From contig JAFSFB010000001.1 in assembly GCA_017435385.1 (NCBI GenBank), positions 124,001 to 188,000 of the forward strand: a stretch of 64,000 nucleotides of DNA, written 5' to 3'. Made by a program: the position numbers and the translations under genes. Below are positions 10,635 through 61,029 of this stretch, in pieces. The notes under the pieces were generated by a model, which worked only from the letters and a program-made list of their open reading frames with translations, did no database searches and was not told the DNA's origin. The stretch is from Clostridia bacterium. Lineage in GTDB: Bacteria; Bacillota; Clostridia; Oscillospirales; Acutalibacteraceae. The stretch's first letter is position 1, and each line of letters opens with the position of its first letter.

Positions 10635-10771
10635 CAGTGAATAGTTTCGGGCGGACTATGTCCGCACCTGATTTTTAATGAAACCAAAAATATAATCGGT
10701 CAAAGGCGGAGCCTTTCCTTAGCTCTTCACCACTCATTTTTCATTATTCATTCAAACAGACTTTTCCGCAT
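10635..10771. repeat. Composite intergenic hairpin repeat (copy A)
   Basis: The left unit AGTGAATAGTT leads into a GCGGAC/GTCCGC hairpin (about 10650-10666). The right unit is inverted: an AAAGGCGGAGCCTTT hairpin (10701-10717) followed by the complement of the GTGAATAATGAA tail. Copies of the same parts occur near 31,490, 37,730, 42,970, 57,980 and 60,990. The end TCAAACAGACTTTTCC at 10752-10767 is shared with the left edge of the DnaA-box cluster at 31554. No coding potential is seen here. Confidence 0.75.
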
Positions 10772-23455: not shown

Positions 23456-23513
23456 GTAGGTCGGCTTGCCTGCAAGCCGCCGCAAGGCGGGATGAGGGCA
23501 TCCCGCCCTACCC
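23456..23513. repeat. Intergenic palindromic repeat (copy B)
   Basis: Two hairpins in a row: GGCTTGC/GCAAGCC (about 23463-23478), then GGCGGGATG / CATCCCGCC (about 23486-23507), closed by GTAGG...CCTAC ends. Part of it (GGCGGGATGAGGG) recurs in opposite orientation at about 37810-37832. Confidence 0.75.
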
Positions 23514-38084: not shown

Positions 38085-39488
38085 TTATTTCTGTTCGAGG
38101 AAAGCTTTGAAGCCCTTGAATGCCATGTAAACATCGAGCTTTGAAACAACCTCAAAGGGAGCGTGCATCGAAAGAACGGGAACGCCGACATCCACGACCT
38201 CAACGCCGAGGTTTGCGATATATTTTGCAACCGTTCCGCCGCCGCCCTCGTCAACTTTGCCGAGCTCGCCCGTCTGCCATGCGACAGAAGCGGAATCGAA
38301 GATATTGCGGATCTTTGCCATGAATTCGGCATGGGCATCGTTCGTGCTGCTCTTGCCTCTGGAGCCCGTATATTTTGTGACAACAATGCCCTTGTTGATG
38401 AATGCGGCATTGAGCTTGTCATGAACCGAAGGATAGATCGGATCAAAGCCTGCGTTGACATCCGCCGACAGACATTCCGAGGCTCTGAGAACATCTCTGC
38501 TCTCGAGTCCCTGAGTTTTTGCAATGTCTGCGATGAACTGCTCAAGATATGCGGAATTGAGCCCCGTGTTGCCGTCTGAGCCCGTTTCTTCCTTGTCGGT
38601 GATAACGGTGACTGTTGTGTAAACGGGGTTTTCTGCGGCAAATGCAGCCATAACAGAGGGGTATGCGCAGACTCTGTCATCGTGACCGTAGGAGCCGATC
38701 ATGCTGCGGTCAAGACCGATATCGCATGATTTGAAGGCAGGAACAACCTCGAGCTCTGCGGAGAGAAAATCTGCTTCGACAATGCCGTATTTTTCGTTGA
38801 GAAGCTTCATGATGTTGAGCTTGACCGCTTCGCTGCCCTTATCCTTTCCGAAGGGGCGGCTGCCGATGAGAACATTGAGATTCTCACCGAGAATAGCTTC
38901 CTCGAGGGGCTTGGATGCCTGCTTTTTGTCGAGATGGGGGAGAAGGTCGGTCACAACGAATTTCGGATCGCCGTCGTCTTCTCCAAGGCAGACATTAACG
39001 ACCTCTCCGTTTTTCTTGCAGATTACGCCGTGAAGAGCAAGGGGAATCGCAGTCCACTGATATTTTTTGATTCCGCCGTAATAGTGAGTCTTTAACATGG
39101 CTAGCTCGTTATCCTCATAGAGCGGATTGGGCTTGAGGTCAAGACGGGGAGAGTCAACATGAGAGGCAACGATTTTCGCACCCTTTGCAAGACTTTCCGA
39201 GCCGAAAACGCAGAGAATGAGAGCCTTTTTGCGGTTTTCGTAATATACCTTGTCGCCTGCTTTATAAGAAGCGGCAGGATCGAAGGGAACGAAGCCTTCT
39301 TTTTCGGCAAGAGCTTTTGTGAAAGCAACAGCCTCACGCTCGGTCTTGCATTTATCGAGAAATTCGGCGTATCCGACGCAGAAATCGTCGGCAGCCTTTA
39401 TTTCGTCGTCAGAGCAGAAATAGGAGGCATGCTCGGGTGAATAAAAAAGCTGTTCTTTAAGAAGCTCAGCAGGATTTTTTTCGCACAT
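38085..39488 (-). CDS. apeB: M18 family aminopeptidase
   Basis: 467 residues from the ATG at 39488, which has AAAGGA eight bases upstream; an in-frame ATG three codons earlier is poorly spaced. M18 signatures: ASHVDSPRLDLKPNPLYE (first metal His-x-Asp), the TDKEETGSDGNTG region (bridging acids) and the late H-A-P-F-E-V segment. It is a zinc aminopeptidase preferring acidic N-termini. Confidence 0.95.
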   Translation of the reverse strand: MCEKNPAELLKEQLFYSPEHASYFCSDDEIKAADDFCVGYAEFLDKCKTEREAVAFTKALAEKEGFVPFDPAASYKAGDKVYYENRKKALILCVFGSESLAKGAKIVASHVDSPRLDLKPNPLYEDNELAMLKTHYYGGIKKYQWTAIPLALHGVICKKNGEVVNVCLGEDDGDPKFVVTDLLPHLDKKQASKPLEEAILGENLNVLIGSRPFGKDKGSEAVKLNIMKLLNEKYGIVEADFLSAELEVVPAFKSCDIGLDRSMIGSYGHDDRVCAYPSVMAAFAAENPVYTTVTVITDKEETGSDGNTGLNSAYLEQFIADIAKTQGLESRDVLRASECLSADVNAGFDPIYPSVHDKLNAAFINKGIVVTKYTGSRGKSSTNDAHAEFMAKIRNIFDSASVAWQTGELGKVDEGGGGTVAKYIANLGVEVVDVGVPVLSMHAPFEVVSKLDVYMAFKGFKAFLEQK

Positions 39489-39525
39489 TTTAACCATCCT
39501 TTCGGTTTATATAATATTAAATAGT

Positions 39526-40092
39526 TTATCCGTTATCAGAATTAAAAAAACAGTCTTCGTTCCATTTTCCCGGATTATTAAAAATATATTCGGCAATCCT
39601 TAAATATTCTTTTTCATCTCGGATTATATGGTCGTGATAGTTTCTTTGCCAAACAGACATTTCGGGGAATGTCTTATGAATTTCTTTTGATGAATTCATT
39701 TTGATATAGCCGACAATGTTTGAAATAACAGAGCGGCTTTGTAGGGGCGATTCACGAATCGCCCGTTCATTTATCCATATTACCATGTGAATATGGTTCG
39801 GCATGATAACAAAATCGCTTATGTAAACATTAAATCTTTCAGGGACACGGTTGATGAAATACTGAACGGTTTTTCCGCAGTCAGTAAGATATGTTTCTGA
39901 ATAATCATATAAAAAAGCCTGATATTCTTCGGGCGATTCGTGAATCGCCCCTACGACAACACGGGAAAATATATTCTTATGAAAACGGGAACAAAATGTA
40001 ACAAAATATGCACCCGAAGAAGAATAGTCCCAATTAATAAGCCGAGTGTTTTTTCTGACGGGTAATTTTTTGTTGCGATTATCTGTTTTCAT
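39526..40092 (-). CDS. REP-associated tyrosine transposase (RAYT, IS200-like Y1)
   Basis: 188 residues. The HUH motif is in MPNHIHMVIW (H100-x-H102) and the catalytic tyrosine is in YHDHIIRDE (Tyr152), the arrangement of RAYT proteins that cut REP hairpins. Two copies of a perfect palindrome are embedded in frame: residues about 48-54 (GAIHESP) and 110-117 (RAIRESPL). Both lie in places where related proteins have loops (after the first beta-strand and right after the HUH strand). The start codon overlaps the stop of the upstream Sua5-CoaE gene (ATGA). No flanking insertion-sequence ends are seen, so it looks like a resident, possibly domesticated, copy. Confidence 0.9.
   Translation of the reverse strand: MKTDNRNKKLPVRKNTRLINWDYSSSGAYFVTFCSRFHKNIFSRVVVGAIHESPEEYQAFLYDYSETYLTDCGKTVQYFINRVPERFNVYISDFVIMPNHIHMVIWINERAIRESPLQSRSVISNIVGYIKMNSSKEIHKTFPEMSVWQRNYHDHIIRDEKEYLRIAEYIFNNPGKWNEDCFFNSDNG
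39741..39765. repeat. Palindrome copy 1 inside the RAYT gene
   Basis: Arms GGGCGATTC and GAATCGCCC around a 2-bp centre (39745-39764), with outer GTAG and G. It encodes RAIRESPL on the minus strand. The whole 25-bp unit is the exact reverse complement of copy 2. Confidence 0.95.
39930..39954. repeat. Palindrome copy 2 inside the RAYT gene
   Basis: The same 25-bp unit as at 39741 but inverted, arms at 39931-39950. It encodes VGAIHESP on the minus strand. A third 20-bp core sits at 60942-60961. Confidence 0.95.
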
Positions 40093-41684
40093 ATTTTGCT
40101 TAATATCTTCCTGATTTCTTCGGCGAGGTTTCCGCCGTTGTTATTGATGACGATATCCGCTTTTCCGATATAATATTCCTCATCCTTCTGCGCATTCATG
40201 CGGATGAGAGCATCCTCACGGCTGATGGAATCACGCTTCATGATTCTTTCGAGCCGTGTTTCTTTTTCGGCAATTACCGTCACCGTGAACGAGCAGATTG
40301 CCGTCAGGTCGCTTTCAAAGAGCAGGGCGGCATCGATAAGAGCGGCATTTGCACCCGATTTTTCCGCCTTATGTATCTCCTCAACGGCAAGGCGTGTGAC
40401 CTCGGGATGAACGGTTGCGTTGAGCATGCGCTGTTTTTCGGCATCCGAAAAAGCTCTTCGTGCAAGCTCATGTCTGTCAAGCGAACCGTCAACGATGATA
40501 TCGTTTCCGAAATACTCCGCAAGAGCGGAAATAACCTCGGGATTTTCAACCGCTTTTCGGGCAAGAATATCCGCATCGATGCAGTAAACTCCGTTTTCGG
40601 CAAGAAGCCCCGAAACCGTTGACTTTCCTGCTCCCGTCTGACCTGTCAGACCGATGACGGGTATTGAAATGTCGAGGTCGATAACCCTGAATGCGGCGGA
40701 GCGGATAAGTCGGTTATAGACCGCAAGACCGACTCCGTCAATCATCGGACAGCGGACAAATGCCGAGCCGCAGCCGCTTTCGTCAACCTCTCTGAGAGCC
40801 TCGAAAAGACCGTGTGCCTGAGAAGCTCCGTCGTTTTCTTTTCCGTATTCAATTGCATTTTCAAAATATCTGCCCTCGCCCTCAAAGCAGACGGCGCAAG
40901 CCGCTTCTTTCTGAGCCAGCAGAAATTTCTTATATTTCTCAAAGCTGCCCTTTACAACCGTAACCCGTGCCTTCGGGGCGTAATGCTTATACTTCATTCC
41001 CGGGGACTCCGCTTTTTCTCCGTCCTTCAGCTTTTCGAGAACGGCAGGCGAGATCGCAATTTTTCCGAGAACGGATTCGAGCTCTTCAACCGTAACTCCG
41101 CCGGGTCTGAGAAGAGTCGGAGGCTCGGTTGCGAGCGTAACAACCGTTGATTCAACGCCGACCGAGCATATTCCGCCGTCAACAACGGCATCGATCTTTC
41201 CGTCGAGGTCGTCAACAACATGGGAAACGCTTGTCGGACTTGGTTTTCCCGAAGCATTTGCGCTCGGGGCGGCAAGCGGCACTCCCGAAAGACGGATGAT
41301 CTCCCTTGCATCGGGATGCGACGGCATGCGGATCGCAACCGTGTCGAGGTTGGGGCTGACCGCATCGGGAACGGCAGGCGACTTTTTCATGATGACCGTC
41401 AGCGGGCCCGGCCAGAACTTTTCCGCAAGGGGATAAAGTCTTTCGTCAACCGTTTCCACGAGAGGGGGGATTTCTTCAAGAGAAGAAACATGAACGATCA
41501 GCGGATTGTCGTTCGGTCTGCCCTTTGCGACGAATATTTTTTTAACCGCTTCTGCGTCGAGAGCGTTTGCCGCAAGACCGTATACCGTTTCCGTCGGTAT
41601 GGCAACAAGACCGCCGTTTCCGAGGATTTCGGCAGCCGTTTCGAGGTCGGTGTGTATTTTTGAATTAAGTTTGAGTGTTTTCAT
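40089..41684 (-). CDS. Fused Sua5-type threonylcarbamoyl-AMP synthase and dephospho-CoA kinase
   Basis: 531 residues. Residues 1-335 are a Sua5/YrdC enzyme (PTETVYGL 30-37, KGRP 54-57, SPGMKYKHYAP 227-237 and the Sua5 C-terminal domain), which makes threonylcarbamoyl-AMP for t6A37 in tRNA. Residues 341-531 are CoaE: P-loop GLTGQTGAGKST (345-356), DAD at 370-372 and RMNAQ lid region. CoaE performs the last step of coenzyme A synthesis. The reading frame is continuous, with no linker stop. It starts 3 bp after prfA and overlaps the RAYT start by 4 bp. Confidence 0.92.
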   Translation of the reverse strand: MKTLKLNSKIHTDLETAAEILGNGGLVAIPTETVYGLAANALDAEAVKKIFVAKGRPNDNPLIVHVSSLEEIPPLVETVDERLYPLAEKFWPGPLTVIMKKSPAVPDAVSPNLDTVAIRMPSHPDAREIIRLSGVPLAAPSANASGKPSPTSVSHVVDDLDGKIDAVVDGGICSVGVESTVVTLATEPPTLLRPGGVTVEELESVLGKIAISPAVLEKLKDGEKAESPGMKYKHYAPKARVTVVKGSFEKYKKFLLAQKEAACAVCFEGEGRYFENAIEYGKENDGASQAHGLFEALREVDESGCGSAFVRCPMIDGVGLAVYNRLIRSAAFRVIDLDISIPVIGLTGQTGAGKSTVSGLLAENGVYCIDADILARKAVENPEVISALAEYFGNDIIVDGSLDRHELARRAFSDAEKQRMLNATVHPEVTRLAVEEIHKAEKSGANAALIDAALLFESDLTAICSFTVTVIAEKETRLERIMKRDSISREDALIRMNAQKDEEYYIGKADIVINNNGGNLAEEIRKILSKI

Positions 41685-42966: not shown

Positions 42967-43032
42967 TAGTGAATAATGAATGGTGAATAGTGAATAGTTA
43001 TGGGCGGACTCTGTCCGCACCTGATTTATATA
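42967..43032. repeat. Composite intergenic repeat (copy E)
   Basis: AGTGAATAATGAATGG, GTGAATAGTGAATAGTT, then the hairpin GGGCGGAC/GTCCGC with ACCTGATT. Nearly identical to copy F at 57974. The rest of the 42951-43188 gap holds no gene and presumably the promoter of the S1-domain gene. Confidence 0.85.
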
Positions 43033-57973: not shown

Positions 57974-58026
57974 AAGTGAATAATGAATAGTGAATAGTTA
58001 AGGGCGGACTCTGTCCGCACCCGATT
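57974..58026. repeat. Composite intergenic repeat (copy F)
   Basis: AAGTGAATAATGAATAG, GTGAATAGTT, then GGGCGGAC/GTCCGC and ACCCGATT. Near-identical to copy E. Sits between the pilus operon and a terminator. Confidence 0.85.
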
Positions 58027-60857: not shown

Positions 60858-61029
60858 AATTCGTAATTCGTAATGCGTGATCCGCAATTGTTTTTAAATA
60901 GTGTAAGGGATAACTCCCTTCCTCAATTCTTAATTGAAATCGGGCGATTCGTGAATCGCCCCTGCGAATATAACGGGTAAGGGCGGAGCCCTTCCTTAAC
61001 TATTCATTATTCAATCTTCACTATTCACT
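60858..61029. repeat. Composite intergenic repeat island (copy G)
   Basis: An AATTCGTAATTCGTAATGCG tail, the hairpin AAGGGATAACTCCCTT (60905-60920), a perfect copy of the RAYT-internal palindrome (GGGCGATTC / GAATCGCCC, 60942-60961), a GGGCGGAGCCC hairpin (60980-60992) and an inverted GTGAATAATGAA-type tail. The longest island in the window, placed between rsfS and leuS. Confidence 0.85.

Follow-up and report, generated by a model that had tools for sequence, protein, structure and literature searches.

We found that a RAYT (TnpAREP) gene at 39526-40092 (-) in the window, that is, in the whole stretch of 64,000 nucleotides analysed, carries two inverted copies of a REP within its own reading frame. 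The 25-bp unit GTAGGGGCGATTCACGAATCGCCCG lies at 39741-39765 (+), and an exact inverted copy lies at 39930-39954 (-), both inside the open reading frame. RAYT genes normally lie between two inverted REPs, and here this pair has probably been internalised at two loops of the protein, linking the enzyme with its cognate substrate.

The RAYT gene and its two internal REPs

The gene encodes a Y1 HUH single-strand transposase of 188 aa. The ORF matched Pfam Y1_Tnp with 40.3 bits, above the gathering score, and its best-scoring NCBIfam family was REP_Tyr_transpos, with 63.9 bits against a curated cut-off of 80 (homologues scored 72.7 and 74.8). The best structural match of the AlphaFold model (pLDDT 85.9) was 4er8_A, the E. 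coli TnpAREP-REP complex (Z 13.1, rmsd 2.8, 129 residues). The HUH motif, H100-I-H102, is encoded at 39787-39795 (-), and neither histidine varies among 64 homologues. Alignment of the homologues placed the catalytic tyrosine, Y169, at 39586-39588 (-), within the Y-x-x-x-N-P signature that the text of PMC6006769 describes for class 2 RAYTs; Y169 and N173 are invariant and P174 is near-invariant (64 homologues). The W-Q...H..R residues, named in the same text as a conserved region contacting the GTAG foot, are also present, VWQRNYHDHIIR of the RAYT aligning to IWQPRFWEHAIR of E. coli.

The start of the RAYT gene is overlapped by 4 nt by the stop of the upstream gene, a TsaC/Sua5-CoaE fusion (40089-41684, -), and the two are probably cotranscribed. 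The fusion gene joins threonylcarbamoyl-AMP synthase (TsaC/Sua5) with dephospho-CoA kinase (CoaE), and a search of 45 genomes of the genus found it in 41, mostly as a single open frame. Downstream lies an M18 aminopeptidase gene (38085-39497, -). In the closest relatives at the locus, G006, G014 and G034, the TsaC-CoaE and M18 genes are adjacent, 42-46 bp apart, without a RAYT. Several relatives of the genus (L187, L188 and L191-L194) have another gene at this junction in the RAYT position, about 500-600 bp long and apparently unrelated.

The repeated unit is a canonical GTAG-REP, made up of the foot and a 9-bp stem that encloses a 2-nt loop, written single-stranded as GTAG-GGGCGATTC-AC-GAATCGCCC. 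Site 1 (39930-39954, -) is in sense orientation and encodes VGAIHESP (residues 47-54), in a turn between strands 43-46 and 66-69 of the AlphaFold model, where residues 51-60 have a mean pLDDT of 58. Site 2 (39741-39765, +) is antisense and encodes RAIRESPL (residues 110-117), in the loop between the HUH strand (100-107) and the next helix (122-141), where residues 111-120 have a mean pLDDT of 62. The model supports the view that both sites are tolerant surface loops with room for about 8 extra residues. A preliminary description of this DNA had reported an exact inverted pair read through in frame, had taken the gene for a RAYT and the repeats for REPs, and had regarded the two insertion places as tolerated loops. 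The pair and its translation were confirmed, and the other two proposals are supported by the Pfam and structure matches, by the foot-stem-loop form of the repeats, and by the position of both sites in the model.

In shuffled sequence, 0 copies of GTAGGGGCGATTCACGAATCGCCCG are expected, even when 3 mismatches are allowed. We also permuted synonymous codons within each RAYT gene, preserving the protein and its codon usage. Perfect hairpins of at least 8 bp with a GTAG foot numbered 104 in the RAYT coding sequences, as compared with 0.4 after this shuffling, which excludes chance and rules out the palindrome as a product of codon choice. The 150 bp on either side of the gene contain no GTAG hairpin; the two inverted copies are internal. 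As they enclose no more than the central part of the gene, they cannot mark the two termini of a transposon that would move the gene as a whole, and a search of the genome found no second copy of this RAYT.

Paired sites in homologous RAYT genes

The homologues examined were 104 proteins with the HUH motif, mostly from Clostridia. A GTAG hairpin occurred at site 1 in 75 of them, at site 2 in 84, at both in 65 and at either in 94, about 10% having no internal REP. Site 1 is the turn before the HUH strand and site 2 the loop after it across these genes, and the orientation is nearly constant: sense rather than antisense by 75:2 at site 1 (77 hairpins), and antisense rather than sense by 80:7 at site 2 (87 hairpins). 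The reading frame through the REP is variable, mostly at site 2, where the three frames are used in 55, 17 and 8 genes, so that the same REP yields different peptides. This argues against the idea that REP-derived peptides participate in REP recognition, with the REP encoding part of its own reader protein. The peptide sequence does necessarily differ with the REP type, which is in favour of such a role; however, the loops are poorly ordered in the AlphaFold model, the site-2 extension is reported in the text of PMC6006769 to lie away from the DNA surface, and REP recognition in the solved relative uses elements other than REP-loop peptides (PMC8266576). We regard this explanation as highly improbable.

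Codons were compared between the gene and its ten nearest homologues at alignment positions where the residue is shared. Of 573 such cases in the REPs, 531 had the same codon, as compared with 1835 of 4035 elsewhere. This unselected set was used because a codon test on eight stem-selected genes (413/413 vs 943/2048) was partly circular. Codons kept in the REPs but not elsewhere indicate that constraint or replacement operates on the DNA; the homologues that keep the peptide also keep its codons, where unrelated codons would have spoken against the preliminary description. Conservation of the peptide for protein function, with the palindrome as a by-product, is ruled out by the codon identity together with the many stems and several frames. 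An example is L019, a RAYT orthologue from the genus that lies between the same two neighbours: the neighbours are 70-81% identical and the RAYT protein about 51-56%, and both internal REPs are the identical 24 bases despite the divergence of the protein.

The two sites were found to change in step. The 64 complete pairs comprised 40 different site-1 arms, and the 9-nt arms were identical at both sites in 49 of the 64, as compared with a mean of 2.3 and a maximum of 10 in 10,000 permutations. The stem match within a gene was better than that with the nearest relative in 37 cases, equal in 22 and worse in 5. Where the nearest relative had another stem (39 cases), the internal match was retained in 29. 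On the tree, the stem type changed at least 39 times at site 1 and at least 41 times at site 2. Six genomes have several two-site RAYTs, and all 17 of these two-site genes are internally matched, for which we calculate a probability of 1 in 13,824 by within-genome shuffling; the REP types in multi-RAYT genomes differ between genes, save for two genes with a common type. Since the two copies vary together in relatives, they look, as judged from these sequences, as if they are maintained as a matched pair and are not accidents. The match may be due to cutting by the RAYT, to recombination with other REPs or to selection.

These patterns bear on the possibility that the REPs are neutral passengers, which land often near their source and survive without a role where the insertion is in frame and the loop tolerant. 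Such an origin would fit the low model confidence of both surface loops, the peripheral position given to the site-2 extension in the model of Quentin et al. (text of PMC6006769), and the known presence of REPs inside unrelated genes (PMC3733652). However, we consider it unlikely, as the orientation is fixed at both sites (75:2 and 80:7), REP types are unmixed within multi-RAYT genomes, and the stems vary in step while the codons are strictly conserved.

REP populations and flanking copies

In its own genome, the REP occurs in 16 copies without mismatch, 14 with a GTAG foot and 2 with GCAG, and allowing up to 2 mismatches raises the count to 22; a reversed control pattern gave 0 matches. The further copies that the preliminary description had proposed to search for were thus found, including the non-coding one noticed near 60942, which lies at 60942-60965 (-) between the gene for a leucyl-tRNA synthetase-like protein and its neighbour and has the foot GCAG instead of GTAG. 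The two RAYT-internal REPs, 190 bp apart, are the sole pair in the genome closer than 1 kb, the other copies being single. A second RAYT of the genome (L017, contig C13) has another REP type internally, with a genomic population of 9; an extragenic copy of this type, GTAGGGCGGGATGCCCTCATCCCGCC, is present in the window at 23486-23511 (-).

Several other repeats were observed. An AT-rich repeat, AATTCGTAATTCGTAATGCGTGATCCGCAATT, at 60858-60889 adjoins the extragenic REP, and a similar sequence stands beside the REPs at L001 and L002. In the segment 23456-23511, two unlike GTAG hairpins lie inverted to each other: GTAGGTCGGCTTGCCTGCAAGCCG (+) and one of the second RAYT's REP type (-). A further palindrome, GGCGGACTCYGTCCGCACCTGATT (up to 2 mismatches), occurs at 10650-10673, 43003-43026 and 58003-58026 (+), with 0 expected by chance, and a similar sequence immediately precedes several of the genomic REPs (L007, L009 and L012). 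Inspection of the genomic REP loci for REPs inside other coding genes gave no convincing case: the REP beside the KDPG-aldolase gene (L001) is upstream of the likely start of that gene, and the reading frames across the REPs at L007, L008 and L013 match no Pfam family.

Across genomes, the REP type followed the RAYT type. The exact GTAG REP was present in 14, 27 and 16 copies in the genomes with this RAYT type (G000, G024 and G097, respectively); it was carried by 3 of 3 genomes with the RAYT type versus 8 of 96 without it, and no copies were found in G006, G014 and G034, which have no RAYT between the TsaC-CoaE and M18 genes. In another genome (G071), contigs C4, C16 and C45 contain GGGCGATTC-type REPs as REPIN-like inverted pairs about 115 bp apart, and no RAYT homologue was detected there. 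The repeat had been described as the enzyme's own substrate; its accompaniment of the RAYT type in several genomes and its maintenance at the DNA level agree with this part of the proposal, and binding and cutting by the enzyme are presumed.

Flanking cognate REPs, at most 150 bp from the gene, were found for 24 of 44 one-site genes as compared with 11 of 71 two-site genes (p 1.9e-5). In 22 of the 24 one-site genes, the flanking REP is oriented as the absent internal copy would be; a flanking partner was not detected for 20 of the 44. When only independent, well-supported branches were counted, the trend kept its direction but was not significant (median p 0.125 and 0.25), with too few pairs. 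Because this test falls short of power, a rule of one REP per strand, inside or outside the gene, is a strong lead and not proven.

We also considered autoregulation, in which the RAYT would bind its own gene or mRNA at the REPs, or an mRNA duplex between REP1 and REP2 would reduce expression. The predicted mRNA fold is dominated by a perfect 25-bp REP1-REP2 stem (MFE -158.9 kcal/mol, z -8.0), one REP per strand is common, and the overlap with a housekeeping gene makes cotranscription probable. However, any inverted pair automatically yields such a stem, the flanking partners 50-100 bp upstream would be useful only when transcribed, and the known substrate of E. coli TnpAREP is REP DNA in single-stranded form (PMC8266576). 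We therefore hold autoregulation to be a doubtful candidate.

Relation to known systems and implications

The core finding, in-frame REPs in RAYT genes, is already published and is not new, since the text of Quentin et al. 2018 (PMC6006769) describes, for subclass 2.4, tnpAREP genes with REPs inserted without loss of the frame, as a rule in the stretch from the HuH to the Y motif. The two cases share a REP inserted in frame in a peripheral extension of the gene product, and the insertion place given there, after the HUH strand and before the helix that follows it, corresponds to site 2 (residues 110-117). In that text, subclass 2.4 is reported mainly from Cyanobacteria and Bacteroidetes, whereas the present homologues are mostly from Clostridia. 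The paired sites, their opposite orientation, the matched stem changes and the exchange with flanking REPs go beyond the text of that paper, its supplement aside.

In the classical arrangement, two inverted cognate REPs border the RAYT gene (Nunvar et al. 2010, PMC2817692). The gene at 39526-40092 shares with this REP-rayt-REP unit, or REPtron, the linkage of a RAYT gene to two inverted cognate REPs, as well as a REP abundance that tracks the RAYT and the coevolution of RAYT and REP. The REPs of a REPtron flank the gene, whereas here both are in the coding sequence and none is within 150 bp outside; the gene is thus a REPtron variant that lacks the flanking inverted REPs of the classical form. 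Intragenic GTAG/CGTC REPs and the Rickettsia palindromic elements (Di Nocera et al. 2013, PMC3733652) are likewise palindromic repeats translated in frame, probably in loops, but their host genes are unrelated to repeat mobility, while the host here is the presumed transposase of the repeat. REPINs (PMC3116915) also consist of two inverted REPs; in contrast to them, the spacer here is transposase coding sequence, and the remaining genomic copies are single.

E. coli TnpAREP recognises the REP as single-stranded DNA, on one strand only (PMC8266576), so an inverted pair gives one recognisable site per strand. In the reading that we prefer, the REP pair of the classical flanking layout would have moved into the coding sequence at two surface loops, where the RAYT protein may recognise the internal REPs as single-stranded hairpins. 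One REP per strand inside the gene would couple the enzyme with its substrate, and the internal pair may serve as a linked master copy that seeds the REP population. Upon a change of REP type, the copies would stay identical through RAYT-mediated or recombinational replacement. A stronger version, which we put forward tentatively, is that the internal pair is an obligate part of the RAYT, with one cognate site per strand, internal or adjacent, kept by directed replacement; the gene would then be a self-contained source and controller of REPs.

These genes address the question of how REP populations arise, switch type and stay matched to their RAYT. With the REP lying inside the coding sequence, each of these genes identifies the presumed substrate of its enzyme, and the REP-bearing RAYT genes thus offer dozens of natural, presumed enzyme-substrate pairs from which the recognition code may be read. 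The link between RAYT and REP is addressable through synonymous recoding.
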